A stretch of DNA of 64,000 bases, taken from assembly GCA_012295275.1 (NCBI GenBank), contig CM022674.1:10988675-11052674 (forward strand), given 5' to 3'. This stretch comes from Chrysomallon squamiferum. Taxonomy: Eukaryota; Mollusca; Gastropoda; Neomphalida; Peltospiridae. Below, one piece after another: positions 3,424-63,795 of the stretch. The translations under genes were made by a program, and so were the position numbers. The notes under the pieces are model-generated. The model ran no database searches, was not told where the DNA came from, and saw nothing but the letters and a program-made list of their open reading frames with translations. Numbering within the stretch: the first letter of the stretch is position 1; every line of letters begins with the position of its first letter.

Positions 3424-4578
3424 AGAGAGAGAGAGAGAGAGAGAGAAATTTTAACATTTGTTAAACTTAGATCAAAAGGCAAGTATTTCTATTAATTTAT
3501 TTGTTTACAGGTTTATTCAGTCAGTTCACTCACACACTGACATACACTGTTGATGTATTTATTATTTATTTGTTTACAGGTTGATTCAGTCAGTTCACTC
3601 ATTGACATACACTGTTGATGTATTTGTTATTTGTCTGTTTACAGGTTTATTCAGTCAGTTCACACATTGACATACACTGTTGATGTATTTATTATTTGTT
3701 TGTTTACAGGTTTATTCAGTCAGTTCACACATTGACATATACTATTGATGTATTTATTATTTATTTGTTTACAGGTTTATTCAGTCAGTTCACACATTGA
3801 CATACACTGTTGATGTATTTATTATTTGTTTATTCAGTCAGTTCACTCATTGACATACACTGTTGATTTATTTATTTATTTGTTTACAGCCACACACACC
3901 CATAGAGTGTTCATGGGATGGATTCTTTGACAAGGAGAGTCAGATAACTGAGATAAGGTTTCAGATTGGATCAAAGGAAGGTTTGGCTGACGTTCTTGCA
4001 CCTGTATCATTACCTGGGACAGTCTCTAAATATCAGGCAATAGGTAAAAATAATTTATTATAATCAGGTAGTGGTAGAAAGGTTTCAAAATAATTAATGA
4101 AAATTTAATAGATTAAGATATTGGCTTATTCAAAATCTTTTGAATATTTTTTTGATAGTTTGAAATAATGAATTTGTAAATAGCAATTTTCTGGATTTGA
4201 ACCAGAATGTTTCACACAAAAATCCAATTGTTAGAAATATAAAATTTTATAACAGAAGTATTATAGCAAATAAAGAACTAACTATTCAGATTAGTTAATG
4301 TTGTTTTTTTAAAGAAATTTACATTTGAAAAACCAAATGAAAATCTTCAACTGTTTGGATTATGTTATAGTGTTAAAAAAACAGCATATTTTGTTTTGTT
4401 ATCACTCTTCTGTCATGTTTTGGGGATTTTATTGGAATTTTTTGTCTGTTATTTTTGTTTTTATCTCTCATTTTCCTTCTTACACTTTTATTCTAGATTT
4501 TGGAGTTTTGTTTCTGTTTATTTTATTTTATTTTATTTTAATTTTATTTATTTATTAATTTTTATAATCTATTATTTA

Positions 4579-4628
<50 letters not shown>

Positions 4629-7600
4629 TTGTTTTTATTTTTAACTTATCCAGCTTATTCCTTCTTACAGGTCTGGATTTAAATTTAAACCACAAGTCAA
4701 AATACTTTGCCACAGTAACTGCAATAAACATACTGGACCAGTCAACAGCTGTGTCATCAAAGCCGATGTCAGTAGACACCACACCACCAGTTGCTGGCAC
4801 CATTGTTGAACTGCGCAGCGTCTATGTCATTGACACAACCAGCGACGTTAACACTGAAATCATGAATCCATTCAAGTGTAACACACAAGAAGGTCAGTGA
4901 CCTGTCAATCCCATAATGCAACAGCTGCTATGGCTCTATTTTTTTTCAGTTAACCTTTTATATTTTAGTGGGGTTTTGGGTTTGTTTTTTTTTGTAGATC
5001 AATCCCATAATGCAACAGTTTGCTGTTCTAATGTTATGGCTACTTTTTTTTTACAATTAATTTTCTGTTTATATTTAATTTGTAGATCAATCCCATAAGC
5101 CAGCAACAAAATGTTTTAGAGTTGTGGCCCTTGTTTTAATATTAACTTTCTGTTTGAGTTTAGCAGTTGCTTTTCTTCTACAAGTAAATCCCATAATGCA
5201 ACAGTCGGATGTATTAGTATTATGGTGGCTTTTTTGTAATTTATTTGAGCTTAATTGTCTTTTACCAATCAATCCCATAATGCAACACTGAAATATATTT
5301 TCCTTTTTATGTTTAATACTGAAAATATTATATAAGTAAATCATATAATGCAATAAAAGATGTTTTACAGTTATAAATCTTTTTATTACCTTTCTGTATA
5401 TTTCTAATGGCTGATGTTCTGCAAAGTCTATAAACTTATTTATTTTCAAGATGGAGACTGCAGAGAACTTCTTTCTTCTTTTATTTATTTATATATTTAT
5501 TTTGTTATATTTTATTTTTTTTTATTTATTTCTATTCTGTTAAACATACTACCTTCACATCTGACTGCTGTTTCAAAATTTCACAAACAGGATAACACAC
5601 ACCAACAATTTTTGTATGACATTGTTCTTATTGAAATAACTGTAACACACCAGTGTTGTGTATTTCAGAGTGTGCTGGTATGGACAGTGTATGTCATCAG
5701 TCTTACACAAGTATATCTGTAGCTTGGCAGGGGTTCAACGACCCCGAAACAGACATAGTCAGGTGAGAAAATAGTTGACAAGATAATACTATATTCTGTA
5801 TATACCTTAATATATATATACAAATTCTTTTTTTTTTTTTTTTTTTTTTACTTTTAATGTTCAGGTGAAAATTAATTTCACAATAGTATTGTGTTACTTT
5901 TCCTTTATGATTGTTTTATTTTATTTTTCAGGATATGATAAAATTTTATATTACTTGACATGTAAATAGTATGATTTTACATTTCTAAGATATAACAATA
6001 CATTTATGTTATAATGTACATTACATTATACCAAATTACATCTAAGTAATTATGTAAGTTACATTCACATGATACAATGTTACATTTTGTTTAATTACAT
6101 TTACATAATAAATTTTACATTATGTCTTTATGTTAGTTACATTTACATGATCATTTTACATTATATCATTATTTTAGTTATATGTTTAAGTTACATTCAC
6201 ATCACTTTAAAGCTACATTTTATTTTTGATTTTAAAATATAATAATTATTTCTATTTTGCTATTATCTGATAAAATCAGATAAATTAAGACAACATTAAC
6301 ATTAGGATAACATACCTGTAATTAATACTAACTTTGGTTATTCCAGGTATCAGGTGGCTGTAGGGAACACACCTGGGGGAGGCCAGTTAAAGCCTCTGTT
6401 TGATGTTCCACTTGATAAGCACTACCTCACCATACAGGGTGTGGTCCTGAAGGGGCAGCGTCAGGTTAGTTTTCACATATTTCTTAACAAATGTGAGGTT
6501 GTTTGGGGGGGTCTAGAGGAGGGGTCCAGGGCCCCCTTCCAAATTTGACTAGTGCCCCTTTTATTTAGGTTTTTTTTTATAAATATATTAGAAAATATAA
6601 ATTTAAGTCAATGAATAGAAAACTAGAATACCTCTGCCAGTGTCCCTGTTGTAGCACTGTTACATTGAGGTCCATGTGAACTGTGTGTAATTTTTCAACA
6701 GTGCCTTTTTCTTAATGTTATGTTGCCCTTTTTGTCATGGACCCCGAACCTCATCAGAAAAGCTGGACCCACCCCAGGTTGTTTTTTTACTGTGATATCA
6801 GCAAAACTAATGTTAAAAAATGAGATTAAGTCATATTCAGATAGGAGATTGTTTTGAAGTCTTAAAACAAAAATTAATGTAAGATCATTTACAGTTAACG
6901 TCTGTACAAATACAAAGTTTTGTTTAAAGTTGTGGAAATCTTTAAATAAAATAAAATTAGGTTAGGTCATTTAAATTTTACTTCTATACTTTTATGCAGA
7001 TATGAAGTTGTGTTTGTTTGATATCTTAAAAAAATGAGGATAGGTCATTTAAACTAATAATCTATGAAAATATAAAATTGTGTTATTTAAGTTTGATACC
7101 TAAAACAATATGAGGCTATACTATATATTTTAAATTTAATGTCTCTTTATTGATAAAAGATAGTTTTGTACATTTAGTTCAATGTTTACTTAAATCTTAA
7201 TGTTTTAATAATAATAGTTTCATTTATTATGTTGGTATCTAAACCAAGGAAGGTTAGTTGACTTAGTTTTAATATCTAAATATGAGCTTAATTAAATATC
7301 TACAGGTATAAATACGGTTTTTAGGCCTTTTAATGTCTAATGACAGTTTACTATAGGACTTGAATTCAGATGTTTGATAAAACAGTTTGAAATCCTGTTA
7401 GCTAAATAAATAAATAAAATTAAGTTTTTCACTTTCTGTACTAAACAACACATATGTGAGTTGTAGAGTCCTGAAACAAACTCATTACACTGTTTCTCAA
7501 TATTCTACTTTATTACTATTATTATTATTATTGTTGTTGTTCTTATTATTTTTATTTTTTATAGGTCTTTGTTACCATCCAGGCTACCAATGGGGCGGGG

Positions 7601-8433
7601 CTAGCTACCACGGCAACGTCCAATGGAGTGTTTATGTCATACCTGAGCCAGGGGGAGGAGCCGCTGTCACCGGTGGCAGTGATGGACACAGACAGTGGGG
7701 ACGTTGATGTGTAGGAATTAATTTTGTTAAAGAGAATCACTCAGTTAATTATCAGCTTTATTGTCATTTTGAGTTTTATCTTTATTGCAAGTTAAAATCA
7801 TTATTGTTATGAATATAATCATTGTTGCCATTATTATCATCATCATAATCATTACCATTTGTGTGATTATAATTATACTCATTATTTTATCATTATTTTT
7901 ATAATTATCATAATCTCTGTATACAACCTCATTATCATCATCATTATTGTTATTTTTCATTGTCACAAATATTTATTATTATTATTATAATTATTATTGT
8001 TGATGTTATTGTTTTTGTTATTATCATTATGTTATTATTATAACGATTATTATTATTAATATTATTATAATTATTATTATTATTATTACTATTATTGTTA
8101 TTATTACTATTATTATTATTTTATTATTATTATCATTATTGTTATTGTTATTATTGTCATTGTTATTGTTATTGTTATTATTACTATTATTATATTATTA
8201 TTATTTTGTTATTACTATTATTATTATTACTATTATTATTACTATTATTATTATTATCATTATTGTTATTATTGTTATGATTATTATTGTCATTGTTATT
8301 GTTATTGTTACTGTTACTGTTATTGCCATTGTTATTGTGATTGTTTTTGTTGTTATTATTGTTACTGTTATTGTTATTGTTATTATTGTCATTGTTATTA
8401 CTATTATTTTATTTTTATTATTATTATTATTTT

Positions 8434-8489
<56 letters not shown>

Positions 8490-9875
8490 CATTATTGTTA
8501 TTATTGTTACGATAACTATTGTCATTGTTATTATTATTGTTACTGTTATTGTTATTGTTACTGTTACTGTTATTGCCATTGTTATTGTTATTGTTATGTT
8601 ATTGTTGTTGTTCTTAGAGATTTTCAGACGAGTACTGCGAAGCTGAGTGCCAGGTGGGAGGTGCTGGGTGACCCGTGTCCAGTGGTCAGGTACGAGTGGG
8701 CCGTGGAGAGAGCAGATGGTTACCTCACACAGGAGTTCACTGACACAGAGGGTAAGCAGAACCCCTCCCCTAAAACTTGCCTGGGTTGTGTGGAAGTTAA
8801 CACAAAGATTTTTGTGTTTGCACACAGAGCTAAATATGCTGGTGTAAAACTCAAAATGTCAAATTTCTTATTTGTATGTCAAATAAAAAACTAAACCTAA
8901 ATATGTTTTTTGATAATAATTTTTATGTGAAAAAAGAAACAACTTTAATACAGCTTTTTATATATCCAAGTTTTATTATTTAAATTTTCCTCTGAAGATC
9001 AACCTTTGCTAATAATGATATAGTAATAAATGTGTTAGTATTTTGAGAGCATATATTTATTAAAAATTGAATATATATATATATATATTCATTCCTATAT
9101 TCAATTTATAATAAATTATGACATTCTTTAATTTATTTTATTTTATTATTGCAAAACTGTATACATTTTATGCATTTTCTGGAGGTTTTCTATGTTGCTG
9201 TTGTTTTTACACAATTTTATATTTAAATTAAATTTACTCTGTTTTTGTGACTAATTATAAATGATACACTTTCAAATCACAGGTCGATTATATGGCATCA
9301 ACGATGACCTTGATATGTCAAATTTGGAGAGGTACTATGTCAAAGTTCGGGTCACCAACAAGGAGGGATTTACATACACGATCATGTCAAATGGAATCAC
9401 AATAGAGGAAGAACCACTGAAACCAGGCAATGTCTACGTTGGTTCAGTGACAGGTTTTAACTTGAAGATGTTACCTACAAAGAGGAAGGTCACTGCAAAC
9501 TGGGACAGCTTTGGTGATGATGGCATTGTAGTTGATCCAAATGAGTTCATTAAAGCTGGTAAATGTTGTTAATTATTATTATTATCATTGCTGTTGTTGT
9601 TGTCGTTGTTAATATTACTTTTGTTGTTGTTTTTATCATTATTATAATTATTGTTAATATTGCTGTTGCTGTTGTTGGTTTTGTTGACCTTATTATTATT
9701 ATTATTGTTATTATTACTATCATAACTGCTATTATTATTATTGTAATAACTAGTTCTTTAATAAGTAGACTAATTTATCATAAATATAGTTCTGTCCCAA
9801 ATTCTGGGTCAGTGATAAAAAATGCAGAAATGTATTTAATCATCGAACCTTTTCATTATTCAAAGTGATTGAAAG

Positions 9876-9922
<47 letters not shown>

Positions 9923-12900
9923 AGTATTATTCATTTAAATGAATATTTCATATTAATAATGTACAAAACTGGAAGATATTTTCATGCTTATAAAAATATT
10001 TATTTCTCTGACTGTAGAAGACAATTCTGTGTCTGACAAAACCAAACCCACAACAAACCAGGAAATAGCATTTTACGAACTGGCAGTGGGAACAGACCGA
10101 CGATTTCCTAAAACACGTGACAACATCATCCCCTTCACCAATGTCGGCATGAACAAGACACACACGTTTTACGACATCGACGTCCTCGTGCCCATTGCGG
10201 CTGTCTACTACTTCACAGTGAGGGCTCACAGCAAGTCGGGGGCCAAGGCAGAAATCACATCCAACGGCTTCTCTGTGGGGTACGAGGGAACAGTGACAGG
10301 TTTGTGTTCATTTGTCAGCTGTCTGTCTGTCTGTCTGTGTGTCTGTCTGTGTGTTTGAGTGAGAAGGAAAGAAAAGGGAGGTAGATGGACAGAGGGACAA
10401 AGAGAGAAAGAGAAGTATAAAGAGATATAGAAGAGAAAGCTAGAAGTAAACAGAAAAATGATAGAGAGAGAGAGAGAAACTAATAAAAATAAGTACATAC
10501 AGGTCAGTGGCTGTTGGAATGTCTGTGTTTTGTCCCACTAAATACCATTTCTATAAATGTTTATTTGTTATTGTGACAAACACTTTTCAATATTTGCCAC
10601 ATTCCTTTCTTGTTGTTTTTCTGCTGTTTATTAAGCAGAAAACTCAAAAACTCTTTATATCATTATTATTCTGGTTTAGCTTCCATTGAGAAATTTATCA
10701 TAGGACATGTGATAAAGAACAATTTTGATTGTTGTTGTCACTGTTATTAATATCTGAGGTCAGTGTTTAAACATCTGTTATTATACTTGACTACAGGAGG
10801 AAAGATAACCATGCCTAGTTACGTGAATGTACTTGATGTACTCGACATACAGTGGGACGGATTCATGTCTGAGATCGGCATCATGATGTACTACGTCGGC
10901 GTATCATCAACTACAACACCAGCAGACAACCACACCTGTAGAGATTTTGTTAGTAAATTTTCTTTTTAATTTGTGTTTTATTTCTAATGTTATTGTTGTG
11001 TGTTCTGTTTCAATGTATGTGAAATGTGTTTAAATATGAATTTGTGATTAATATAATTTAACTGGGCAAAACTAACTGTTTCATTAGTAGATAGGTTTCT
11101 GTTTGGCTGGTGAAACTTTGTTTTTAGAAAGACATGTGTTTGTACATGTTTATGTTGTGTGTGTGTGATATAAAGAGGGATCACTAATTTACTATGTGTT
11201 TATTTGTAGACTGAAGTATATTAATTTACTATGTATTTATTTGTAGACTGAAGTATATTTATTTACACACTAATTTACTATGTATTTATTTTGAAGTATA
11301 TTTAGACATTAATTTGAAGTTATATTTTACATATTAATTTACTATGTGTTTTATTTGTAGACTGAAGTATATATTTATTTTAGACTATATTTTTATTTGT
11401 AGAGATATACTGTATTTAGTATATTTACTATGTATTTGTAGACTGAAGTATATTTACTATGCATTTGTAGACTAAAATATATTTACTGTATTTATTTGTA
11501 GACTGAAGTATATTTACTATGTATTTATTTGTAGATGGAAGTATATTTATTTACTATGTATTTATTTGTAGACTGAAGTATATTTACTGTGTATTTATTT
11601 GTAGACTGATGTATATTTACTATGTATTTGTAGACTAAAATATATTTACTGTGTATTTATTTGTAGACTGAAGTATATTTATTTACTATGTATTTATTTG
11701 TAGACTGAAGTATATTTATTTACTATGTATTTATTTGTAGACTGAAGTATATTTATTTACTGTGTTTATTTTATTTGTAGACTGAAGTATATTAATTTAC
11801 TATGTATTTTATTTGTAGATGGAAGTATATTTATTTACTATGTATTTATTTGTAGACTGAAGTATATTTATTTACTTTATGTTTACAGGCTAAAGTATGT
11901 TTACTATGTATTTATTTGTAGACTGATGTATATTTACTATGTATTTATTTGTAGACTATTTATTTAAAATATATTTATTTACTTTATGTTTATTTGCAGG
12001 CTAAAGTATTTATTATGTATTTGTAGACTGAAGTATATTAATTTACTATGTATTTATTTGTAGACTGAAGTATATTTATTTACTATGTATTTATTTGTAG
12101 ACTGAAGTATATTTATTTACTTTATGTTTATTTGCAGGCTAAAGTATGTTTACTATGTATTTATTTGTAGACTGAAGTATATTAATTTACTATGTATTTA
12201 TTTGTAGACTGAAGTATATTTATTTACTATGTATTTATTTGTAGACTGAAGGTGGTAGTTTGTCAGAGGGAGATATAAATAAAATATTTGATATTGTGGT
12301 CATACACAACATTGGTAAAGACATGTTTGCTAAACTGAAGAATCTCACACTTGAACAGAATACAGTCTATTATACCTGGGTTATTGGTGAGAAATCTTTA
12401 CTTAAATATTTTATTCATTTAACATCATTTAAATTCATTACAGAAAAATAATCATTTTGAGTTTCAGAGTCAAAATCAATTTTTTTTTTTTTTTTTTTTA
12501 TGTTATTTTATCTTATTTTATTTTGTTTTATTTATTTATTTTAATTGTTTTTAATTTTTGTATTTGTTTATTTATTTGTTTATTTATTTATTATTTATAT
12601 TTTTATTTATTATAACAATTTTGTTTATCTTTATTGGTGTTAATTATGGCTTTTAAACTGTCATGTTATTTTTATTTATTTTAAATTTAGATTTTTAAAT
12701 CTGTTTTTAATTGTTATTACAGAGGTGAGATAATTAATTGTTTATTTTGGGCAGAGTTTAATTGTTATTGTACAGGTGAGGTAATTAATTGTGTATTTAC
12801 TCTGCAGGTGCTGATTTATCAGGTAAATGTAACATGGCAAAGTTTAATTGTTATTGTACAGGTAAGGTAATTAATTGTGTATTTACTCTGCAGGTGCTGA

Positions 12901-14563
12901 TTTATCAGGTAAATGTAACATGGCAAAGTTTAATTGTTATTGTACAGGTGAGGTAATTAATTGTGTATTTACTCTGCAGGTGCTGATTTATCAGGTAAAT
13001 GTAACATGGCAAAGTTTAATTGTTATTGTACAGGTGAGGTAATTAATTGTTTATTTATTCTGCAGGTGCTGATTTATCAGGTAAATGTAACATGGCAAAG
13101 TTCAGATTTCTCGTTGATGTTACTGAACCTGTTGAAGGAAAATTACGAACAGGACCCTACTACAACATGGTTTGTTTTGTTTACTAGTTTTATAAATATA
13201 AACCATTTGTCACCAGTAACTAAAAAAAAATAATTAATTAATCAAGAGAAAACTAAAGAACAAAAATATTGACTAGCATGCATATGCATGCACATAAATA
13301 AATAAAAATAAATTTGATAAAGTGAAATATATGTACAGAAAAAAATGCATCTGTGTACAAGAACATAAAATATATTGAAATTTAAAATTTAAAATAAAAA
13401 TTAAATATTATAATTGATTAAGTTATTTCCAAACTAATATTATATAAGAAAAAAATAATAAATATAATTTTTTTTTAATATTTTTAAAACTGATATTTTA
13501 ATTATAAGCTAACATTAAAATAAATAAAACATTAAAAAAGTATTATAACAAGTTATAATTAATTTGTAAACTGTTTAAATTTAACAAATCATTTAAGTTA
13601 TCTAACTGGAATTTTCAGGTGTGAACTAGCTTGATAATTAAAACAAAAATTAAAAATTAAATAAATATATTATCTAACAAGATGTTTTAATTACAAACTA
13701 GCACCTGTAATTTAAAATCCATAAATACAATTTATGAAGTGTTATTTCTAAATTAAAGAAACTGACATATGCTGCTGTGAACAACATGCTTGATGTCACC
13801 TGGGAGAGTTACCATGACGATGAGTCTGGGATCAAAGCTTTTCACTTGACGCTGTTGAAGAGGTTGTCCTGCAGTGACAACACCAGTGAAGTAGTTGTCA
13901 TTAAACCACTGAAACTGAGTTCAAATCTTGCCTCCTACAAGTTTCTTTTGGATTTCAATCTGCAGGTAAATTATAATACTTTATTTTGGTTTGTTCATTA
14001 TTAAAAACATCTATAAAATTTATATATTTATATATATATATATGTATGTGAGAGTATGTAGAGAGAGACAGAAAAATAGCTAGATATATCTTCTATGTAT
14101 GTGTGTGTGTGTGTTTATATATATATATATATGTGTATGTATGTCTGTACACACACATTTATATACATATATACACACATACGCATATTTACATACATAC
14201 ATATAAATAGACAGAGAGATAGAAAAACTTTCACAGTAATATTCTGTTGTAAAGTTTAGTTACCAAATTCACATTATTGATCTGTATATGTACATGCAGA
14301 TATGTGTGTTTATTTATTTATTTATTTCCAGCCTAACTACCCATACTATGTGAGGCTGGTTTGTGAAAACGAGGCAGGTTTAACTGTTACTACATTATCT
14401 CCCCCTATCCTGTATGACGACACAAAACCTACAGCAGGAAGAGTCGTCAAGGGACATAACTTCCAAAGTGACATTGTGTGGTTTGGTTCAGTCTCCACAT
14501 TTACAGGTCAGATCTTATAACTGGATTTTTAACTTTTATTATTGTTGTTATGGTTGCTAGTGT

Positions 14564-14596
<33 letters not shown>

Positions 14597-18531: not shown

Positions 18532-18609
<78 letters not shown>

Positions 18610-21600: not shown

Positions 21601-22775
21601 CTTGTCTACCTACATCCTTCCTACTTGTCTACCTACATCCTTCTTACTTGTCTACCTACATCCCTCCTACTTGTCTACCTACATCCCTCCTACTTGTCTA
21701 CCTACATCCCTCCTACTTGTCTACCTACATCCTTCCTACTTGTCTACCTACATCCTTCTTACTTGTCTACCTACATCCTTCCTACTTGTCTACCTGCATC
21801 CTTCTTACTTGTCTACCTACATCCTTCCTCCTTGTCTACCTACATCCTTCTTACTTGTCTTCCTACATCCTTCCTACTTGTCCACCTGCATCCTTCCTAC
21901 TTGTCCACCTGGTTCCTTCTTACTTGTCTACCTACATCCTTCGTACTTGTCTACCTACATCCTTCTTTCTTTTCTACCTACATCCTTCCTACTTGTCTAC
22001 CTACATCCTTCCTACTTGTCTACCTACATCCCTCCTACTTGTCTACCTACGTCCTTCCTACTTGTCTACCTACATCCTTCCTACTTGTCTACCTACATCC
22101 CTCCTACTTGTCTACTTACATCCTTCCTACTTGTCTACCTACATCCTTCTTATTTGTCTACCTACATCCCTCCTACTTGTCTACTTACATCCTTCCTACT
22201 TGTCTACCTACAACCTTCTTACTTCTCTACCTGTCTGTCTGTCTGCCTTTCTCTCTGCCTATCTATCTACATACAGGTTTTTACTGTATCTCAAGAACAC
22301 AAAAACACACAGACACACTCATGTTGTGGGGTTTAAATGAAAATATATATTTTTAAATTTCAGTTTTAATTTGTTTTCTCTGTCAGGTATCACAGTTTTG
22401 ATTGAATTTCCCAATCCGAACACAGTACCAGCACAGATGGAAGCTGTTGAAATGATTGCCAAAAATGTTATACCCAAGAATGCGATGAAGTCGTTTAACA
22501 GCAACAGTGTCAGTGCATCATGGCAACTCAGTACAGACAAACTGATTAATAGATATGGTAAAGATTTTGATATATATATAGACACACACACAGACACACA
22601 CACACATATATATACACAGATATGTATACATATATACATATATAAATATATATTTGTCTATAAAATTCTGAAATTTATATTTTAAAACTTGTGGAAATTA
22701 TTTTCAATGAGAATAGCAAAATGTAGTTCAGCATTAATTTATTTAGCATTGCTTTTTGTTATTTTGTTTTTTTGT

Positions 22776-22814
<39 letters not shown>

Positions 22815-36900: not shown

Positions 36901-36966
36901 GGATGTTCACTTCCAGTGAGGATGTAATCTATTATTTTTATTATTGTTGTTATTATAGTTATTTTT

Positions 36967-37015
<49 letters not shown>

Positions 37016-44793: not shown

Positions 44794-44866
<73 letters not shown>

Positions 44867-49483: not shown

Positions 49484-49514
<31 letters not shown>

Positions 49515-51828: not shown

Positions 51829-51860
<32 letters not shown>

Positions 51861-52552
51861 ACACACAATGCAATGCATACATAAGTACATACATACATAA
51901 ATACAAACAAATACACATTTCCATCCATACATACATACAACACACACAGACATGAACATACTAAAGTTATTCACAGAAACTGTATATGTATGTCTGCACA
52001 CACACACACACACACATACATACATACACACACACACATATACAGATATCCATACATACATACAACACACATATACAGACACACACAGACATTAACATAC
52101 CAAAGTTATTCACAGAAACTGTACATGTATGTCTGCACACACACACACACACACATGCACACACATGCACACACACGAACACACACACATATACACACAC
52201 GCACACTCACAGACATTGTTCACAGAGACAGTGAACATTTAATGTCTAACAACACATAGAGACATAGTTGGATGATGAAATACTAATTATGACATCTGTT
52301 ACCTGCTGTGGTGTTTGATGTGAATGAAAATAAAGTTCTGTGATGACGTAGTCTTCACATTGGGCTAGCTAACTGCAAATGCCATGCACACACTGAGTTT
52401 ACTTGTACAGGTGTGGTTGAAGTGACTCTGCATTGTGACAGTGTGAACCAGTGTACTTAGTCTGTGGTTGTTATCACGTACTCTGTTGTTATACCAGCAA
52501 TGAAGCGGTTTGTAAACAGGTAAGGTTTATTGTTGTTACTTTGTGAGCATGT

Positions 52553-52588
<36 letters not shown>

Positions 52589-53459
52589 TATATGTGTTTA
52601 TATGTCCTGTGTGTGTGTATATATGTAGAGTATCTGTATTTTGTTGTGAATGTGTATATGTATGTATGTATGTATGTATGTATATATTTGTGTGTGAGTG
52701 TTATGTGTGTTTGTATGTAGGTATGTGTGTATACATATAGAGCATATATATTTCTTGTGTGTGTGTATATGTACATAGTTTTCTCTGTTCTCTGTGTGTG
52801 TGAATGTGAGAGAGAGAACACAGATAAATAAATGGATGGATGGATGGATGGATGGCTGTATAGTCAGATAAATATATACTAGATAAATATAGATAGATAT
52901 AGACAAACATCAGTAGATAGGTAGGTAAGTAGATAGATGTTTGAAGATTATTTTATGTAATATTTAAGTAGAAAGGGTGTGTTTGTCAGCTATTGGTTAA
53001 TTGTCTGTGAAATTCACATAAAACTGAAATATGTGAATGTTGTTATAATTTGAATTTCAAATACATCGACTGTTAGATTGTTTATATTTTATTGCATGCA
53101 TTATACAAGTGAAATTTTTCATTTCTGCTCATAACCCAGTGGTTATACAACTTTGTAAATTTATCCTCTCTTTCTGTCTGTCTGTCTGTCACTTTCTCTC
53201 TCTCTCACACACACATACACACAAACACACAAACATGTACACACATTTAAGTATATATATATATGTGTGTATATGTTTTTCAAGTGTTTAAATCACATTA
53301 TTAAGTTAAGTTTTATACTGTATTTGTGTATGTGAGAGTGTAATTCAAACACACAAGTGTTTGCTAAATAAATATAAACAATATTAAAGAAACTAAATTG
53401 TTTATTTTAATAAATTTAGCAAACTTTTATATTGCAGATATATTATGAAGAGATGTTTA

Positions 53460-53496
<37 letters not shown>

Positions 53497-56400
53497 TCTT
53501 TACCACTGTATAATCTAACAACATAATAATTAATTTTTCACTCTATATTCTTGTGTATATGAGTATAAACAAGTTGTTTGCAGTTTAAGCCTGGGAATAA
53601 GGACACACATCATTTCATTTTTCAGTATATTTTTTTATTACTTATACAAACAGGACAGGACATGTACACAGAAATCTTGTTACAAACCTTTTCATTCAGT
53701 CATCTCGTGCATGGCTTGTCGTGACTGAAAACTTAAACAATCACAACATTGCCTCTGTGTCTGGATTCTGTGAATTTTATCCATGATTTCCAATGGCAAT
53801 TGTATCATTTACCGTTGCAAGGAATAGTGGGTAATTTTCACTGTATGAATTCTCAGCCTCCATTGCAACATTTTTGTTAATTTTTCTAGCTGTACCTCCA
53901 ATTTTACATGTTATAAGTTTATTTTTAATTATCATGTACCTTTAATATATAACATTATTTCTTCATTTTGAATTATCAAGCATCATTAAAATGTCATGCA
54001 ACATTTTGAATTATACAGCTTTGAAATATCATGACTTCTATTTGAATTATACTTTAGATGTCATGATATCATTTTGAATTATGTAACTTTAAAATATGAC
54101 TTCTATTTGAATTATACTTTATCATTTTGAATTATAGCATTAAAATGTCATATTAGTTTGAATTATTCAACTTCAAAATGTGACAACTTCTGTTTGAATT
54201 ATAGTTTAAAATATCTTGCGACATTTTCAATTATGATATCATTTTTAATTTGACAAAATGTGTTTATCTATGCATGTTTGTTTTCATGTTCAGTCAGCTG
54301 TTTTATAAGTTACTCTAAATTACCCAGTTATTAAGTATAATTAAGTGTTCAGCTGTAAAGTTGTAAGTTATTGGAGAAGAAAACCGCAGTAAAAGCTGAT
54401 CTGTGACAGATGTTGCACACCACAGCTTGTTTTTTATTTAGTTCAATCACTGTGAAAGTATTTATTACACATAACTAACTCTAAACAGAGGGATTTTAAT
54501 ACAACACTAATTACAACTTGTTTAAATGTAGGGTGAGTTAAATACACTTAATCTTCATGAGTTTGTTTATGTTTGTGTCTGTTTTTGTTTGTGTATGTGT
54601 GTGTGTGTATGCATGTGTGTATGTATCTGTGTTGTGTATGTGTGTTGTGTGTGTATGTGTGTTGTGTTATGTATGTGTGTTGTGTGCTTGTGTATCTGTA
54701 AGAAGGTTTATTCGTATAATGTTATGCTTGTCTGTGTGTATTGTGTGTGTCTATGTGTGTATGTATGTGCACGCATGTGTGCACGCATGTGTATCTGTAT
54801 AAGTCTGTTTTTAGTATGTATCTGTATCAGTCTGTTTTTAGTATATATCTGTTTTTAGTATGTATCTGTATCATATCTGTTTTTAGTATGTATCTGTATA
54901 AGTCTGTTTTTAGTATATATCTGTTTTAAGTATGTTTTCTGTATATATCTGTTTTTAGTATGTATCTGTATATATCTGTTTTTAGTATGTATCTGTATAT
55001 ATCTGTTTTTAGTATGTATCTGTATAAGTCTGTTTTAGTACATATCTGTTTTTAGTATGTATCTGTATAAATCGGTTTTTAGTATGTATCTGTATAAATC
55101 GGTTTTTAGTATGTATCTGTATATATCTATTTTTAGTATGTATCTGTATAAGTCTGTTTTAGTACATATCTGTTTTTAGTATGTATCTGTATAAATTGGT
55201 TTTTAGTATGTATCTGTATAAATTGGTTTTTAGTATGTATCTGTATAAATTGGTTTTTAGTATGTATCTGTATAATATCTGTTTTTAGTATTATCTGTAT
55301 ATATCTGTTTTTAGTATGTATCTGTATATATCTGTTTTTAGTATGTATCTGTATATATCTGGTATGTATGTTTGTGTATCTGTGTCCATCTATCTGTCTT
55401 TAATAATTATTTGAAGAATCTTTCTCAGATATTTTTTGTTGCACAAAATATGATGAAAAGATAATTGACTTTTTTTTTTTTTTTTTTATTTATCAGTCTG
55501 GTAAAACAAAAAAAGATAAAAAAGATAAAAAAAAGAAAAGAAAAGATTCATGAATTAAATATTATTCTAGTTTCCAGTAAATTAAACAAAAGTTTGATAT
55601 TTGTCATGATTAAGTCATCAACTACTAAGTCAATAGTTTAAAAAAATCCTGTTCTCTTTCTTTTCTCTCTCTTGTCTTTACTTCCTTGACCACACATATA
55701 AATACATTAGTTGTGTATCTGATGGTTTTCAGCATTTCATGCAGGATGTACAACACCCAAAGTGTTTGTCAGTTTGACAACATTTACAAGTAAGTTTTTA
55801 CACAACTTCGTGTAATATGTTTTTTAAATTTTAAAATATTTGGCAACTTCTTGTTAATGAAGGAAGGATATTGATATAAAATTATCTTGCAGGTTAATAT
55901 TTTAAAAATTTTGTTGTGTTTATTGGGTATGGAAAATCTGATTTTATGTTCTCTAAATTACTGTTCTGTTTCTTCTATTTTTCTTTTCTTTTTTCTCGCC
56001 ATTTTCTCATTCTACTTCTTTCTTTCTCACCTTCTTTTTCTCTGTCATGCAGTTCTTTCTGTTTCACAAATGTACACAAAAACATGCAATACACATACAT
56101 AAATACTGATATAACAAAAAGAAAAACATACCAAAACACACACATACATAAGCACAAACACAAAACACACACACACACATATACACATTTACACAAACGT
56201 TTACACAAAAAAAACACCTACACACCCATACATTTGGAAAGTACCTTCAACACAGTAACATCATTACATTAAATAAATAGGTCATTTAGATCAATTACTT
56301 AAAATAGACGCCAAGTATTTTCCGGGGTTTGAGCCAATTAGAATATTCCTTTGATCACAGTATATTAAAAAACCAGTCTAGCAATCAATAAATGTTGACA

Positions 56401-56691
56401 CAGTGATAGACAAAGAAAACGTTTCTCTTTTTTTTTATACACAGACCTTACCTGTCGTTTTTGGAAACGCAAAATGTTTTCATGGAAATACTGTGAGAAG
56501 ATTTTCTTGTTTGTATCTTAAAAATGTTATTTTTGTTCAGTAATATTTCAGTGTGAGCATGATACATTTGCTTGAACCTTCAGTTAATATATATCTGTAA
56601 AATGTGTATGTTATATATACATGTATTATATTTAAGTTTGTGTATATTTATGTATATTTATGTATGTTTTTATATCATGTATAAAAGTATG

Positions 56692-56765
<74 letters not shown>

Positions 56766-59700
56766 TATCATACTATATTAATTTGGTGGTTTTCATGCTC
56801 AGTGAAAAGCTGTTTGATTATAATTTATATCTGCTTCTTGTCTACAGTGAAGTGCTTAATACTATTTATGTTACTGCTAATTAAAAAAAAGAATAGTCCA
56901 CGCTTAATATCAGCTGGTTTCATTTATTATTATTTGTATATTACTGTTAACTGTAGATTACGAATGTGTTGAGTGCATCATTAAACTTGAAGAAATGTAT
57001 GATTCTTCCTTCCTTGTTATAAAAATAGATAGCTACTGGATAAAAGCTTCATTATGATTGGTGACATTAATACAGGTCTCATGCAGGTGACAAACGATTC
57101 ATTGCATTCATAAAAGCCAGGTAATGGCCATTACGTGCAATGAAATAAAAAGATTAACATACATTCTAGTACAAATATAAATAAATCTGTTTGAATTATG
57201 AAATAAAACATAAATTTAGTGTACCAGTAGATTAAAAAACTTGTGTGATGTCTGGTGGATCAAGCAGTTAATGCTCATTATTACAAAAACTGTGCTCTGA
57301 TGTGGGTTAGAACAGGAAAACATCGCAAGAATCAAAGATTCATCTAAAATGCATCATGGAGTTAATGCCAGTGGCATCCGTTTGAGGTAATACTTTCCTA
57401 ACAACAAACTTCAGTGGTATTTGGGTAAATCATGGATACAGACATCATAAATGCAATTTAGCTACTGACAAACATGACTGTGAAAACAAAATCAACTAGT
57501 TTAGTCCATGGTGTTTTTGGTGAGATTAACTGAAAGCATTTTTTTTTATTTGTAATAATCGTTTACATAACATTAAAAAACACAAAGGAACTGCCAACCC
57601 AGGATTAGCATGTTAAAACTCATTCATGTGCAGTGGACCATGTGTCTCTTGTAACAGGTTGGTCAAAGACCTGCAGTGGTCACACATGGCTGAAATCTTG
57701 CTTAACTATTAGACAATAATTTTATAAAAGTAATATTTAATAATGTATCGCAATTTTAATCTTTGTTTTACTTCTGCAGTTTGCTGGTTTGATGAACATT
57801 TCAGCTGTTCTCTACAAATAACTGTTCTAGTTGTACCTTACAAAGAACTGTGTTCTAGTTGTATCTTATACAGAACTGTGTTCTAGTTGTATCTTACACA
57901 GAACTGTTCTAGTTGTGCCTTACAAAGACATTAGAATTTTAATACATTAGTTACACAGACAAAATCATAGAAATAGATATGTCATTAATGTGAATACTGA
58001 AATTTTATAAATGTGACATTAAAGTGAACAACTTGATTTTTTTGTTAACTTTATGATCCATGGTTTGGGTGTGTGTAAATATATGTGCATGTTATTTGTT
58101 ATCAGATATAAATATTTTATTGAATAAATACAGATTTATTTTGTTATTTGATCTGAAGTATAAGCATCTATGTCTATGTTGTGTACAGACCTTAGTAAAA
58201 ATATTCAGATGCAACCAAAATGTTATTTAAAAAAAAAAAAAAAAAATATAATATACTGAGACAAGTTTTTTTTCTCTTTATCTAGGCTGTATGTGTATGT
58301 GTGTGTATTTATGTTTGTGCATGCACATACAGTGTATACATATACATGTACACACACACACACACACACACATTTAATTAGTCCTGTTGGTGCCTACTAC
58401 ATCGTTACATCAGGTGGTTCAATGCTTTTAATACTGATAAACCATCAAAGGTCACATTGCTGTCAGACAGCCACCCATATTAATAATGTTCAGTTAAATT
58501 ATTTACCTTGATTATAAATAATACAGGTGCTAATTAAGATGTTTTTCTGAAGAAGAAATCTACATTTGACCAGACGTGTGTTGATAAAGTGCTTCTTTTT
58601 ATTTAACCCCAAACAGCTGACTCTGTGCCACATAAAATTTGCCACATGTTAATTTTGATATGCAATGAAATACATAAAATACATGATACAGTTTACATGA
58701 TAATACAGAATGAAGTGTCATACATAAAACAGATAATATCACTGACATTTCATACATATACAAAAATAAAAGAATTAATTGCTACTACATTGTACAGCCT
58801 TAAAATATCTGTTTATATATCTTTATTTATTTACTTATTTATTAACATGTTTGTTTGTTTATCTGTTTATTTATTTACTTATTTGTCTGTCTATCTGTAT
58901 TACTTATCTGTTTATCTATCTAGATTATATTTAGTTATTTACATAATCTATCTATAATCTATCTATATATAGCTATCTGTTTATCTATCTATCTCTGTAT
59001 CTATCTATATCTAGTTATCTATCTATCTATATCTGTCTATCTATCTATATAACTATCTGTCTGTCTACATACCTGTATTTATGTATTTGTTTATTTGTGT
59101 ATTTCAGAAACATTCCTGACCCAGCCTGTCAGCGACTGCATTGGAACAAACCTCCAGTCTCTGTTCTCGTTGTGAGAAAAATCAACGATGACGCTGTTGT
59201 CATTCCTTTCAGAAACCTCCTTATATGGTTAATAGAGGTCAGTCTTACTGCCGTTGTTGTTGTGGTTGTTGTTGTTGTGTCACTGTTTTCTGCTATGACT
59301 ACTTTATTTATTATTATTGTTACTGTCATTATTATTGTGTTATTATTACTGATGTTGTAGTTGTTGTTGCTGCTTTTGTTGTTATTGACGTAATTGTTAT
59401 TAGTAGTATTTTATCAGATTTTTTAAATTATTATTATTATTATTATTATTAGCATCATCATCATCATCATCATCATCATTATCATCACCATAATCATCAT
59501 CATAATTCAAATCATTTTTATTATTTCATTCTTTATATTTTTATTGTTATTTTAATTATTCAGTTTTCTTTTCTGTATTATTATAATAATTAGTTAACCA
59601 ACATATTGATCGTTTTTTTATTGATTTTTTTATTGATTTTTTTTATTAAGGTTCTTACAACATTAATTAGTTTGATTTTGTTGTAATTTCAAAATTATTT

Positions 59701-60253
59701 TAGAGTTGACATCAGTAGAACAAACAGGCTTACAAAAGTTCATTAAAATTTCATATTTGTTTTATGCATTGACTATGGTTACCTGAAACTAAATGAAACA
59801 AAGACAGACACATTGGGGATGTTTTTGTGTTGTCACATAAAAGATGCTCAGTCATGCATGAACATTAGCATAGGTTGGAAAGGGAAAACAAAGACTAATC
59901 CATGAAACTGAGAACTGAAGAAACTCGAAACACCACAGTAAAATCTAATCTGTTACACCATAGAGGGTATGATGCTCCATTGATGTGTGTTAGAACTGGA
60001 AAACATGGGAACCTTAGATTCTTTTATACCACAGAGATTATGTTCATTCAGGCGTTATTGTTGCTTGGAACTAGAAAACAGTAATTCAGAAGGACCCTGG
60101 TGACATGATATATATAATTAACTAGTCAGATAGAGATACTAATACAGGTTAGATTGGGAAAATTGTTCAACACAGCAGTTCTGGTTTTGTATTGGCTTAT
60201 TCCAAGTTTTATCCAGAAACTAAATATCTTGTTTAGGTTTATTAAAGATTATT

Positions 60254-60290
<37 letters not shown>

Positions 60291-60582
60291 CCATTATCAC
60301 CATCATTATAATCATCATTATTCTGCTACTATTGTGACTATTATTACTATTGCAACTACTTCTACTACTACTGTAATATTCTACCACAGCTACTTCTTCT
60401 ACTACTACCATTATTACTGCTACTGCAGCTACTACCACTACTATTACAATAAACATCTTTACCAATATCAACATCATCATCACCATTATCATGCTCATTA
60501 TCATTACTGCTGCTGCTATTAGTGTTATTTTTATGACTGCAATAATATTTTAGCAAAATCATGATTATTATTATTATTTTTA

Positions 60583-60643
<61 letters not shown>

Positions 60644-61437
60644 TATTTATTTTATTTTATTTATTTATTTATTTTTTTTGTTTTTCCAGGAGAAGGACAT
60701 GGTTGTGTTTGTTGAGTCAACCATGTTGGATGAACCAGTCTGTTCAGATGAGGAATTTCAGAAAATTGTCAAGAAGGTCCATACTTTTAAAGAAGGTAAG
60801 CCAACATGATGCTGTTGCTGTTGTTGATGTTGATGTTGTTTGATTGGTGATTATGTTTGACACAGATATGAGTTTAATAAGTAATAGGATACACAATTTG
60901 TGATTTTAGATGAGGAGAAGCTGACAGATAAAATTGACTTCATTGTTTGTCTGGGGGGAGATGGAACTTTGCTGTATGTTTCATCTTTGTTTCAGGTATT
61001 TTTATTATACAATTTGTGTTTTTCATCATTTTATTTAAAATATTACTTGCCTATTTCTTTCTGTGTATGTGAATGTGTGATTGTGTCAGGTGTATATATG
61101 TTGTGTGTAAACATACATACATACACATACACATATATACAACAGAAACACATACATATATGTAGTCTGTATGTTTAGAGAGTTTAATATGTGTGTGTGT
61201 TTGTGTTTGTGTGTGTGTGTGTTTGAGTGTGTGTGTGTGTGTGTGGATACAAACTTATACATACACACAAACAGAAAGGAAATACATTTTTATGTTATAT
61301 ACTTGAATGTTAACTGATGACCAAAATGAAAAAATGTGTACCTCCAATTGATCATTCTCTGTCAGACACTAACAAACTGTACAAACACTGACACTTAGTA
61401 AATCATTCAGAATTGAATTGTTTTTTTTTCCTTGTAC

Positions 61438-61487
<50 letters not shown>

Positions 61488-61781
61488 TAATAATAATATT
61501 ACAACAATAATAATAATAATATAGAAACACTTTAATATTTATTTTTTTGTATAAAATTTAAATTTGTCTTGTTAAATACATTTTTAATTGCATTTATTTT
61601 ATTTTATATTTTTTTATGAATGTTGTTTATTTTTATTTATTTTATTTTATTTTATATTTTTTTATGTGTGTTTTTCAGACGAGTGTTCCTCCAGTGATGG
61701 CGTTCAACATGGGCTCTCTCGGGTTTCTCACTCCGTTTCAAATACAGGACTTCAAAGAAGAAATCTCCGCAGTGCTGGCAG
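43965..61781 (+). CDS. NADK: NAD kinase, 3'-partial, first six exons
   Basis: NAD kinase phosphorylates NAD to NADP in the cytosol. Exons: 43965-44233, 45518-45601, 59108-59237, 60690-60795, 60910-60995, 61679-61781, giving 259 codons before the frame leaves the window; all phases match. The N-terminus is Ser/Thr-rich with a TPPTPPTPPTPTTPTTPT tract. Exon 2 holds RKARSLYG (residues about 91-97), matching the R-x-R-S-L phosphosite context of vertebrate NADK. Exon 3 has DPACQRLHWNKPPVSVLVV. Exon 5 has the catalytic LGGDGTLL (GGDGT about residues 212-216, aspartate proposed as base in the family). Exon 6 has SVPPVMAFNMGSLGFLTPF. The downstream NE-D and GSTAY regions are not in the window. The start ATG has A at -3. 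Divergent from CSTF1. Intron 2 is 13.5 kb. Intron 6 is a 36-bp donor array of over 2 kb. Confidence 0.95.
44234..45517 (+). repeat. NADK intron 1 with TC-AC compound microsatellite
   Basis: A CT run followed directly by a CA run lies at about 44794-44868. The rest is AT-rich. I see no alternative exon. Confidence 0.75.
45602..49019 (+). other. NADK intron 2, proximal part
   Basis: AT-rich, with ttta-rich tracts (45840-46090) and a less AT-rich unique stretch at 46700-46920 of unknown nature. No coding potential beyond short spurious frames. Confidence 0.5.
49020..49145 (+). promoter_or_regulatory. Candidate regulatory cluster: CCAAT boxes and DR1 element
   Basis: Two ATTGG (inverted CCAAT) boxes occur in gattggttg and ccattggctg, near 49065 and 49099. 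They precede AGGTCA-G-AGTTCA at 49127-49139, two perfect RGKTCA half-sites one base apart (the DR1 arrangement bound by RXR/HNF4-type receptors). Short motifs can arise by chance in 13 kb. The clustering is the argument. Confidence 0.3.
49665..50545 (+). repeat. 31-bp minisatellite, about 28 copies (NADK intron 2)
   Basis: Units read acacaccatacacagcatat, then (g/a)tagtaactag. Several are 29 or 30 bp, and one shortened unit lies at about 50125. Highly homogeneous in the 3' half (50230-50460). It produces Tyr/Cys/Val-rich minus-strand frames that are artefacts. Confidence 0.9.
51770..52225 (+). repeat. CA/CATA-rich region with an internal duplication
   Basis: CA runs are separated by a unique core (ttattcacagaaactgta, then tgtatgtctgcaca) present at about 51967 and again at about 52106, a roughly 139-bp duplication. 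It lies just upstream of the candidate alternative first exon. Confidence 0.75.
52500..52519 (+). CDS. NADK: Candidate alternative NADK first coding exon
   Basis: An ATG opens MKRFVN plus two bases (AG), followed by the strong donor GTAAGG at 52520. The phase (2) is exactly what exon 3 at 59108 requires, giving MKRFVNR-NIPDPACQ. The preceding 52270-52499 is unique, non-repetitive sequence that could be a promoter and 5' UTR. Alternative first exons are known for vertebrate NADK. No transcript evidence is available here, so this is a hypothesis. Confidence 0.35.
52553..53500 (+). repeat. GT, ATGG and CA runs in NADK intron 2
   Basis: GT/TATG repeats (52555-52780), a GGAT tetranucleotide run (52833-52856) and a CA run (53460-53495). 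The large number of short overlapping frames on both strands comes from these. Confidence 0.8.
53930..54260 (+). repeat. Degenerate tandem repeat with core ttgaattat
   Basis: About nine occurrences of cattttgaattat or tatttgaattata at 30-50-bp spacing, with variants of aaaatgtcatgac between. An old array. Confidence 0.65.
54800..55370 (+). repeat. Array of ctgtttttagtatgtat units, NADK intron 2
   Basis: About twenty units of 28-32 bp reading tatctgtata-agtctgtttttagtatg. Each contains the acceptor-like tttttag, but the downstream bases do not match any exon I can identify. Preceded by TG repeats (54557-54790). Confidence 0.8.
55733..55789 (+). CDS. NADK: Candidate in-frame NADK cassette exon (57 bp)
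   Basis: It is bounded by ggttttcag at 55732 and the strong donor GTAAGT at 55790. Entered in phase 2 and left in phase 2, it is open for 19 codons (ISCRMYNTQSVCQFDNIY plus split codons). It would add exactly 19 residues between exon 2 (or the 52500 exon) and exon 3. An internal ATG at 55746 could also act as an alternative start. Support comes from splice signals and frame only; I cannot check conservation. Confidence 0.35.
56698..56762 (+). repeat. TA-TG compound microsatellite
   Basis: A TA run of about 32 bp passes directly into a TG run of about 32 bp. Confidence 0.9.
57240..57330 (+). mobile_element. tRNA-like SINE fragment
   Basis: ggatcaagcagttaatgc resembles a tRNA D-arm/box A. About 45 bases on, gggttagaac resembles box B (consensus GGTTCGAAN). 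The B-box block tgatgtg(g/t)gttagaac(a/t)ggaaaacat recurs at 59981-60006. This suggests two degraded copies of a tRNA-derived SINE. The assignment is tentative. Confidence 0.35.
57820..57925 (+). repeat. Short tandem repeat, NADK intron 2
   Basis: Three to four units of about 33 bp with ttctagttgtatcttacaca, agaactgtg. Confidence 0.7.
58800..59075 (+). repeat. TTTA and TCTA tetranucleotide repeats before NADK exon 3
   Basis: Interrupted ttta and atct units run up to the exon 3 acceptor region. Confidence 0.8.
59238..60689 (+). repeat. NADK intron 3: triplet arrays and a second SINE-like fragment
   Basis: gtt/att triplets (59240-59480), ATC triplets (59452-59510, 60248-60315), act/gct triplets to 60530 and a TTA run (60583-60642) that forms the exon 4 pyrimidine tract. 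A tRNA-like fragment similar to that at 57298-57323 lies at 59981-60006. Confidence 0.65.
60996..61678 (+). repeat. NADK intron 5: TATA/GT and AAT repeats
   Basis: CATA and GT runs (61100-61270), an AAT run (61438-61520) and ttta-rich sequence before the exon 6 acceptor. Confidence 0.7.
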
Positions 61782-63795
61782 GTAAAACAGGGCAGCTTAC
61801 TCTGGGGGTGCTAGCAGGTAAAACAGGGCAGCTTACTCTGGGGGTGCTAGCAGGTAAAACAGGGCAGCTTACTCTGGGGGTGCTAGCAGGTAAAACAGAG
61901 CAGCTTACTCTGGGGGTGCTAGCAGGTAAAACAATGGCAGCTTACTCTGGGGGTGCTAGTAGGTAAAATGGCAGCTTACTCTGGGGGTGCTAGCAGGTAA
62001 AACAGAGCAGCTTACTCTGGGGGTGCTAGCAGGTAAAACAGGGCAGCTTACTCTGGGGGTGCTAGCAGGTAAAACAATGGCAGCTTACTCTGGGGGTGCT
62101 AGCAGGTAAAACAATGGCAGCTTACTCTGGGGTTGCTAAAAAACAATGGCAGCTTACTCTGGGGGTGCTAGCAGGTAAAACAATGGCAGCTTACTCTGGG
62201 GGTGCTAGCAGGTAAAACAGAGCAGCTTACTCTGGGGGTGCTAGCAGGTAAAACAATGGCAGCTTACTCTGGGGGTGCTTAACAGGTAAAAACAATGGCA
62301 GCTTACTCTGGGGGTGCTAGTAGGTAAAACGGCAGCTTACTCTGGGGGTGCTGGCAGGTAAAACAGAGCAGCTTACTCTGGGGGTGCTGGCAGGTAAAAC
62401 AGGGCAGCTTACTCTGGGGTTGCTGGCAGGTAAAACAGAGCAGCTTACTCTGGGGGTGCTAGCAGGTAAAACAGGGCAGCTTACTCTGGGGGTGCTGGCA
62501 GGTAAAACAGGGCAGCTTACTCTGGGGGTGCTAGCAGGTAAAACAGGGCAGCTTACTCTGGGGGTGCCGGCAGGTAAAACAGAGCAGCTTACTCTGGGGG
62601 TGCTAGCAGGTAAAACAATGGCAGCTTACTCTGGGGGTGCTAGCAGGTAAAACAGGGCAGCTTACTCTGGGGGTGCTGGCAGGTAAAACAGGGCAGCTTA
62701 CTCTGGGGGTGCTAGCAGGTAAAACAATGGCAGCTTACTCTGGGGGTGCTAGTAGGTAAAACGGCAGCTTACTCTGGGGGTGCTGGCAGGTAAAACAGGG
62801 CAGCTTACTCTGGGGGTGCTGGCAGGTAAAAAACAGAGCAGCTTACTCTGGGGGTGCTGGCAGGTAAAACAGGGCAGCTTACTCTGGGGGTTGCTGGCAG
62901 GTAAAACAGAGCAGCTTACTCTGGGGGTGCTAGCAGGTAAAACAGAGCAGCTTACTCTGGGGGTGCTAGCAGGTAAAACAGGGCAGCTTACTCTGGGGGT
63001 GCTAGCAGGTAAAACAGGGCAGCTTACTCTGGGGGTGCCGGCAGGTAAAACAGAGCAGCTTACTCTGGGGGTGCTAGCAGGTAAAACAGGGCAGCTTACT
63101 CTGGGGGTGCTAGCAGGTAAAACAGAGCAGCTTACTCTGGGGGGGTGCTAGCAGGTAAAACAAGGGCAGCTTACTCTGGGGGTGCTAGTAGGTAAAATGG
63201 CAGCTTACTCTGGGGGTGCTGGCAGGTAAAACAGGGCAGCTTACTCTGGGGGTGCTGGCAGGTAAAAAACAGAGCAGCTTACTCTGGGGGTGCTGGCAGG
63301 TAAAACAGGGCAGCTTACTCTGGGGTTGCTGGCAGGTAAAACAGAGCAGCTTACTCTGGGGGTGCTAGCAGGTAAAACAGAGCAGCTTACTCTGGGGGTG
63401 CTAGCAGGTAAAACAGGGCAGCTTACTCTGGGGGTGCTAGCAGGTAAAACAGGGCAGCTTACTCTGGGGGTGCTGGCAGGTAAAACAGAGCAGCTTACTC
63501 TGGGGGTGCTAGCAGGTAAAACAATGGCAGCTTACTCTGGGGGTGCTAGCAGGTAAAACGGCAGCTTACTCTGGGGGTGCTAGCAGGTAAAACGGCAGCT
63601 TACTCTGGGGGTGCTAGCAGGTAAAACGGCAGCTTACTCTGGGGGTGCTAGCAGGTAAAACAGGGCAGCTTACTCTGGGGGTGCTAGCAGGTAAAATGGC
63701 AGCTTACTCTGGGGGTTCTAGCAGGTAAAACGGCAGCTTACTCTGGGGGTGCTAGCAGGTAAAACGGCAGCTTACTCTGGGGGTTCTGGTAGGTG
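61772..63795 (+). repeat. 36-bp donor-junction array, about 55 units (NADK intron 6)
   Basis: The unit gtgctagcag-gtaaaacag followed by ggcagcttactctgggg is 36 bp. Its first ten bases are the last ten bases of NADK exon 6 (gtgctggcag, ending 61781), and its next bases are the intron 6 donor (gtaaaac). Donors at 61782, 61818, 61854, 61890 and 61926 lie in one continuous frame (VLAGKTGQLTLG per unit), until a 37-bp variant (acaatggcag) shifts the frame and a stop occurs at 61964. Unit variants: gctggcag/gctagcag/gccggcag, acagagcag, aaaatggcag, aaacggcag. Higher-order repetition is visible (for example 62336-62660 resembles 62757-63070 and 63200-63520). Confidence 0.97.

Follow-up and report, generated by a model that had tools for sequence, protein, structure and literature searches.

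Minisatellite-like tandem duplications across exon-intron boundaries have been described in lancelets, where Canestro and others (2002) gave the repeats of the Adh3 gene the name "mirages" (as cited in PMC3087553). They occur at the 5' or the 3' boundary with units of 10 to about 160 bp; many of the repeats have an intact AG or GT, and splicing is apparently undisturbed as judged by RT-PCR (PMC3087553). The known loci include Adh3 and the globins BflGb6 and BflGb9, and comparable structures are cited from the retinol dehydrogenase and presenilin loci (PMC3087553); mirages are also described in PGBD5 and troponin C of lancelets (PMC3902484). Further traits of mirages are lengths that vary among alleles or somatically, and concerted evolution inside a cluster whose edge units diverge. 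In genes of primate segmental duplications, minisatellite expansion at exon-intron boundaries can make novel introns (PMC2812944), and in Drosophila intron gain has been ascribed to the tandem duplication of AG/GT proto-splice sites, known as the Rogers model (PMC2891723).

We herein analyse one window, a stretch of 64,000 nucleotides from the scaly-foot gastropod Chrysomallon squamiferum. Like lancelet mirages, the snail units span the boundary (at 9 of 109 junctions), affect both 5' and 3' ends, and mostly keep the AG or GT intact. Unlike them, the arrays described here belong to a gastropod mollusc, affect each of the three genes and 9 of 109 junctions, and have as many as 53 copies. Length polymorphism and normal splicing were reported for the lancelets, whereas the snail arrays are known from the sequence of one haplotype. 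The primate internal tandem repeats are likewise located at exon-intron boundaries, but they were recognised in recent paralogs via exon alignments, and 66% of the intron changes come with an alternative transcript that retains the repeat (PMC2812944), whereas the snail genes are conserved and the copies mostly break the reading frame. The Rogers model shares with our case a tandem duplication involving splice signals; there the new intron is as long as the coding segment that was duplicated (PMC2891723), whereas in the snail existing introns grow at one end. Among the matches listed by a literature search, the coverage of which leaves out many journals, there was no report of mirages in molluscs. 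The snail arrays therefore appear to be a dense molluscan occurrence of the known mirage kind, and it is the abundance in a mollusc that appears new. The initial annotation of this DNA had known of no named description of such arrays, a claim that falls in view of the lancelet work, where the same thing is named for Adh3, globin, PGBD5 and other genes (PMC3087553, PMC3902484). Mirages are thus extended into Mollusca from lancelets, the only group among the matches listed, and at a density of 9 in 109 junctions, with all of the three genes affected, they would be among the main sources of minisatellites in introns.

The AT-rich animal DNA of the window carries three genes. Gene 1 (+ strand, 121-29862) was modelled with 37 exons; its start lies beyond the window edge, and the model ends at 29862, leaving out the last exons downstream. 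By reading, it encodes a membrane protein in which extracellular domains recur and which has a transmembrane segment and an EGF-like end, and a protein search limited in length and word matched two uncharacterised proteins, one from a nemertean (34% identity) and one from a hemichordate (31%). CSTF1 (- strand, 43436-33914) has 13 exons and a complete open reading frame (closed frame MKIGD...YRKATTD*). NADK (+ strand, 43965-61781) is seen with 6 exons and runs past the window end; its product was named NAD kinase by a PDB search in which preliminary exon bounds served as the query. CSTF1 and NADK stand head to head, with start codons 529 bp apart (43436-43965). The CSTF1 most alike in sequence is that of Gigantopelta aegis (Peltospiridae), with 94% over 79%, which comes only seventh by score, after Haliotis and others, because that isoform is shorter; the best NADK match is Gigantopelta aegis as well. 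The Gigantopelta aegis CSTF1 isoform X2 (P0007) is without the conserved C-terminus after LIVYT, within the stretch encoded here by exon 11, and this loss may be a prediction or splicing oddity. The final gene models combine a masked model with hand-set boundaries, checked by open joined frames. A model with a low intron penalty placed dozens of false micro-exons inside the arrays of gene 1 introns 14, 15 and 34 and of NADK, and junction arrays of this kind mislead gene predictors.

Duplicated junctions were detected by a dot-plot scan at offsets of 15-1200, in which a match has to extend 8 nt or more, and score positively, to either side of the point and is given a score S. In the three modelled genes, 9 of 109 junctions lie in tandem duplications that span the boundary (S 18-107) and the remaining 100 score 0, so that about one splice junction in 12, in three genes of one window, is tandemly copied into its own intron. 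Duplicated junctions were found in all three genes, and three random sequences generated from a first-order Markov model of the window never gave an S as high as 18. Each of 107 junctions (plus and minus 30 nt), with two open-ended ones omitted, was also aligned locally, with gaps, to its own intron and compared with 200 shuffles. The same nine gave the highest z among spanning matches (5.5-26), each exceeding the best of 200 shuffles. Eight of them are clear, with z of 11.4-26. Gene 1 acceptor 18 is the weakest at z 5.5 and lies barely above two uncounted junctions: gene 1 donor 25, with z 5.1 and 6 aligned exon nt, and NADK donor 3, with z 4.4 and 9 aligned exon nt. The spanning matches of these two also beat 200 shuffles, but both were left out on account of their few exon nt and their scan score of S=0; the case for intron 18 is its scan score together with the visible 39-bp duplication. 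The nine arrays, a borderline array and two control arrays are listed by position in the window, with strand and evidence.

11187-12251, + strand: acceptor array of gene 1 intron 14 (TRF; S=65.5; z 12.5)
12713-13102, + strand: acceptor array of gene 1 intron 15 (TRF and sequence; S=92; z 26)
14765-14853, + strand: acceptor of gene 1 intron 18, a new and weaker case (visible 39-bp duplication; S=23.5; z 5.5)
16708-17110, + strand: diverged donor repeats of gene 1 intron 21 (sequence; S=18; z 11.4)
27073-28215, + strand: acceptor array of gene 1 intron 34 (TRF; S=107; z 24.8)
40205-40598, - strand: donor array of CSTF1 intron 4 (TRF; S=77; z 21.4)
36750-37077, - strand: donor duplication of CSTF1 intron 8 (sequence; S=70; z 24.7)
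34014-34138, - strand: acceptor array of CSTF1 intron 12 (TRF and sequence; S=35.5; z 17.9)
61772-63789, + strand: donor array of NADK intron 6 (sequence; S=70; z 18.4)
3490-3889, + strand: array of gene 1 intron 5, borderline and uncounted (TRF and sequence; one-sided gapped match)
20494-22232, + strand: control, array of gene 1 intron 26 with unit 23 and no junction inside (TRF; cluster list)
42214-42403, - strand: control, array of CSTF1 intron 2 with unit 41 and no junction inside (TRF; cluster list)

The affected boundaries are five acceptors and four donors. Across the nine junctions, the exon part of the repeat unit is 7-53 nt, and unit lengths (36, 37, 39, 55, 67, 86, 147) are often not multiples of three. 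Calculated from the coordinates of the parts, the nine arrays total roughly 5.7 kb, which is about 11% of 49.9 kb of intron. The initial annotation had also proposed nine amplified junctions. Eight of these hold, with 7-53 exon nt in common, namely gene 1 acceptors 14, 15 and 34 and donor 21, CSTF1 donors 4 and 8 and acceptor 12, and NADK donor 6; the array of gene 1 intron 5 does not, as it has no exon bases.

Among the acceptors, gene 1 intron 14 has a spacing of mostly 33-37, with 25 intact-AG copies upstream of the authentic acceptor (exon from 12245) and 7 exon nt within the unit. The 86-bp unit of intron 15 is present in three copies ahead of the authentic acceptor and shares 37 nt with the exon at 13066-13169. 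At intron 18 the junction is duplicated once, with a period of 39, the authentic exon starting at 14831 and 21 exon nt being included. Intron 34 has 17 copies, 11 with intact AG, at a spacing of 67-69 close to the exon and 51-67 further away, and shares 53 nt with the exon that starts at 28163. In CSTF1 intron 12 the junction is found in three copies by sequence, of which the anchored copy rule used below counts one of the two extra ones (authentic exon start 34026; 13 exon nt).

Among the donors, NADK intron 6 is the longest series, with 53 intact-GT copies of a unit of 36 after the authentic exon end at 61781 and 10 exon nt in the unit; its acceptor lies beyond the window. CSTF1 intron 4 has seven intact-GT copies of a unit of 55 (authentic exon end 40582; 17 exon nt). 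CSTF1 intron 8 has one close copy (offset 147), the one that the anchored rule counts, and one degenerate copy recognised by eye (authentic exon end 37043; 35 exon nt). The repeats of gene 1 intron 21 are the most diverged of the nine: the best copy, at 16877, matches 29 exon and 19 intron nt of the donor at 16736/16737, and more partial copies were seen by eye up to about 17110.

Several observations concern the units themselves or neighbouring introns. At 12760-13060 in gene 1 intron 15, every 86-bp unit also has TTATTGTACAG followed immediately by GTGAGG or GTAAGG, that is, an acceptor directly followed by a donor, a form which we take to resemble a recursive splice site. AG/GT is found within the NADK unit too, and recursive splicing was considered for units with AG/GT. 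In gene 1 intron 21 (16740-17070), the motif GGGAAATAACTC, which reads GGGAGACAACTC at the donor, was seen about five times by eye. A similar motif is frequent in mollusc genomes, and dispersed repeats may contribute to the repeats of this intron. The array of gene 1 intron 5, with a unit of 65, stops exactly at the acceptor AG (3889) and comprises the tract and the AG with zero exon bases. Gene 1 intron 7 (4893-5290) has a one-sided donor match with z 9.1, and its repeat perhaps abuts the junction without exon bases as in intron 5.

The direction of copying can be read from the proteins. In eight of the nine cases, the exon part of the unit encodes protein that aligns with other animals, and no insertion at the joins was seen in the aligned homologs. 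The CSTF1 joins FHPSG/QLIATG, GTEHPT/LRLYD and LLSLG/HNGVV (the slash marks the join) match Haliotis and Patella without insertion, and the former two match Gigantopelta in the same way; for gene 1, the joins of introns 15, 18, 21 and 34 can be aligned to the nemertean and hemichordate proteins; and the end VLAG of the NADK exon, whose exon side alone is within the window, aligns with VLEG/N or similar in six other proteins. The exception is gene 1 intron 14, the 7-nt exon part of which falls in a gapped stretch of the homolog alignment. Because the exon parts are coding and aligned with homologs, the junctions are old and the intron copies derived in eight of nine, and from these alignments we read that, gene 1 intron 14 aside, the junctions are copied into the introns and not the reverse. 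The proposal of the initial annotation, junction-spanning tandem duplication followed by amplification, is borne out by the same facts, as the homologs carry the exon ends and have no insertions at the joins (8 of 9). Its remark that copies always lie on the intron side is true of all nine, and is nearly a tautology that adds no independent evidence, because anything outside the used junction is intron by definition.

Most copies are potential splice sites. Copies were counted in ten introns, gene 1 intron 5 included, by an anchored rule of a 66% match, which detected 113 copies, and 107 of these have an intact splice dinucleotide, in agreement with the earlier suggestion that the arrays lengthen introns and create decoy sites. 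Measured by a generic consensus score, 97 of the 107 intact decoys fall no more than one unit below the authentic site, and 14 exceed it. The use of 102 of the 107 would break the protein, 96 by putting a stop codon into the insert and 6 by shifting the frame with no stop; the other five, four in NADK and one in CSTF1 intron 8, are in frame and have no stop. The protein homologs fit the use of the exon-proximal site at eight of nine sites, and we infer that splicing in this animal uses that site. If it does so in spite of equal decoys, then selection is not by local consensus, or wrong products are removed. Most simply, we assume, the spliceosome chooses by how far a site lies from its partner at the other end of the exon, or the wrong mRNAs decay. 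The arrays are natural experiments on splice-site choice, offering tens of near-equal-scoring decoys in a fixed order within conserved housekeeping genes.

Traces of the origin of the arrays are seen in some of them. At gene 1 intron 18, an exact 8-nt direct repeat, CCTCCCTA, is located at both edges of the duplicated unit, and in CSTF1 intron 4 an exact 9-nt direct repeat, TCATTCCAT, is located in the exon end and the far intron flank. Direct repeats flanking duplicated segments are as expected for slippage or microhomology joining; seven arrays were inspected by eye for repeats at unit edges, which are clear in these two, while the other five have nothing as clear. In gene 1 intron 34, identity to the authentic copy drops with distance (rho -0.81, P 4e-5): it is 91-97% for the five copies that lie closest to the exon and mostly 72-78% for those further out, a few of which have 83-88%. 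This proximal-to-distal gradient was found in one of six arrays examined, with no significant trend in the other five.

Taken together, we consider it very likely that these arrays are mirage minisatellites which arise by tolerated junction-spanning duplication and amplification. A short segment spanning an existing exon-intron junction would undergo tandem duplication, the probable cause being slippage or end joining at short direct repeats. The extra copy would be tolerated as intron because the copy nearest the exon still yields the normal mRNA, and minisatellite turnover would then multiply and homogenise the copies, leaving a longer intron full of decoy splice sites. Both the neutrality of the copies and the mechanism of duplication are what we infer.

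Other origins of the arrays have to be weighed against tolerated duplication. The introns themselves could have been created by tandem duplication of exonic AG/GT segments, as in the Rogers model, which would account for the exon bases in junction units and for the AG/GT within the NADK unit, and which would place both ends of an intron in copies of one duplicated segment. In the eight introns with both ends inside the window, however, only one end is repeated and a single junction per intron lies in the repeat, and therefore those eight introns were not born by these duplications; the unit also has intron sequence beyond the splice signal, so that the intron was already present, and we regard such intron gain as scarcely credible here. 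It is very improbable too that each array came first, inside an intron, and that the exon later extended into it as an exonised minisatellite: the array of gene 1 intron 5 that stops at the AG can be read in this way, as can gene 1 intron 14 with just 7 exon nt in a poorly aligned stretch, but the exon parts at gene 1 introns 15, 18, 21 and 34, the three CSTF1 sites and NADK all align with homologs. The extra sites might instead be used on purpose to make alternative proteins, and four NADK decoy donors would add in-frame 12-residue repeats. The five frame-keeping, stop-free decoys would suit this purpose, whereas the other 102 lead to a stop or a frameshift, and the 12-residue repeat is absent from all six homologous NADK proteins checked; deliberate use is accordingly very doubtful. 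Long arrays are error-prone in assemblies, which speaks for an artefact, but the copies differ by many substitutions and in spacing, and the random sequences that never reached the scan threshold speak against chance, so that artefact or chance is hardly to be entertained as the source.

A further reading is that duplications start or survive at splice junctions more than elsewhere in introns, because DNA damage is coupled to splicing, for example, or because spare splice sites are favoured by selection. A junction is included in seven of the 16 strong non-microsatellite arrays, against 1.48-1.62 expected under a geometric null that randomly places a segment of equal unit length (P 1.6e-4 to 3e-4); with weak arrays added, the count is nine of 24 against 2.3-2.5 (P 1.2e-4 to 2.6e-4), and a null that places whole arrays gives seven against 1.69 (P 6e-4). 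An earlier count without the NADK 5' introns, now superseded, had seven of 11 strong arrays with a junction and a larger excess; these introns add five non-junction arrays, which raises the expected number and makes P less extreme. For a smaller gene span, 60% of duplicated intron positions lie in junction arrays, and intron outside junction arrays is 13.0% covered by duplications. On the other side, these P values are post hoc because the window was chosen for this pattern, and the arrays were hand-selected from the cluster list, with choices that affect the denominators. Clusters that are microsatellite-like or dispersed pairs were dropped (e.g., 7805-7971, 9577-9689, 15695, 19559, 23695, 37985/38481, 40830 and 59424), as was the coding array at 23211-23467, while clusters 54796-54957 and 55026-55356 were counted as one array. 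An array may also stay recognisable for longer because the junction copy is held constant by selection; if junction arrays are recognisable twice as long, P becomes 0.006-0.015, and if fourfold, 0.09-0.22. Per base, duplications cover 8.3% of junctions, 25.3% of unmasked intron positions and 4.6% of exon positions, and junctions are therefore not special by coverage. These coverage figures do not support a junction-targeted process.

The junction excess in this window is suggestive but post hoc, and a bias in formation or retention seems to us unlikely, if conceivable, as the explanation. The initial annotation took such arrays to be a feature of the genome as a whole, a reading for which the basis here is one window of three genes. 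That junctions are true hotspots of tandem duplication in this molluscan lineage, with splice-site copies pumped into introns genome-wide, is a distinctly unlikely proposition. If it were true, much of the intron length and many of the intronic minisatellites would derive from amplified junctions, and accurate splicing would depend on an exon definition that passes over dozens of equivalent decoys.

Other repeats are also present in the window, where long trinucleotide and dinucleotide arrays are common. The array of gene 1 intron 26 extends over 1.7 kb with a C-rich 23-bp unit and strong strand skew (GC skew -0.66), and gene 1 intron 10 (7973-8597) contains an imperfect TTA repeat of more than 600 bp. 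There is no duplication cluster between 29312 and 34021 in the duplication cluster list. The only cluster of that list within a modelled exon is a minisatellite (18/36/81 bp) at 23211-23467, in coding exon 28 of gene 1, which is open throughout and encodes DGPTNK-like repeats.
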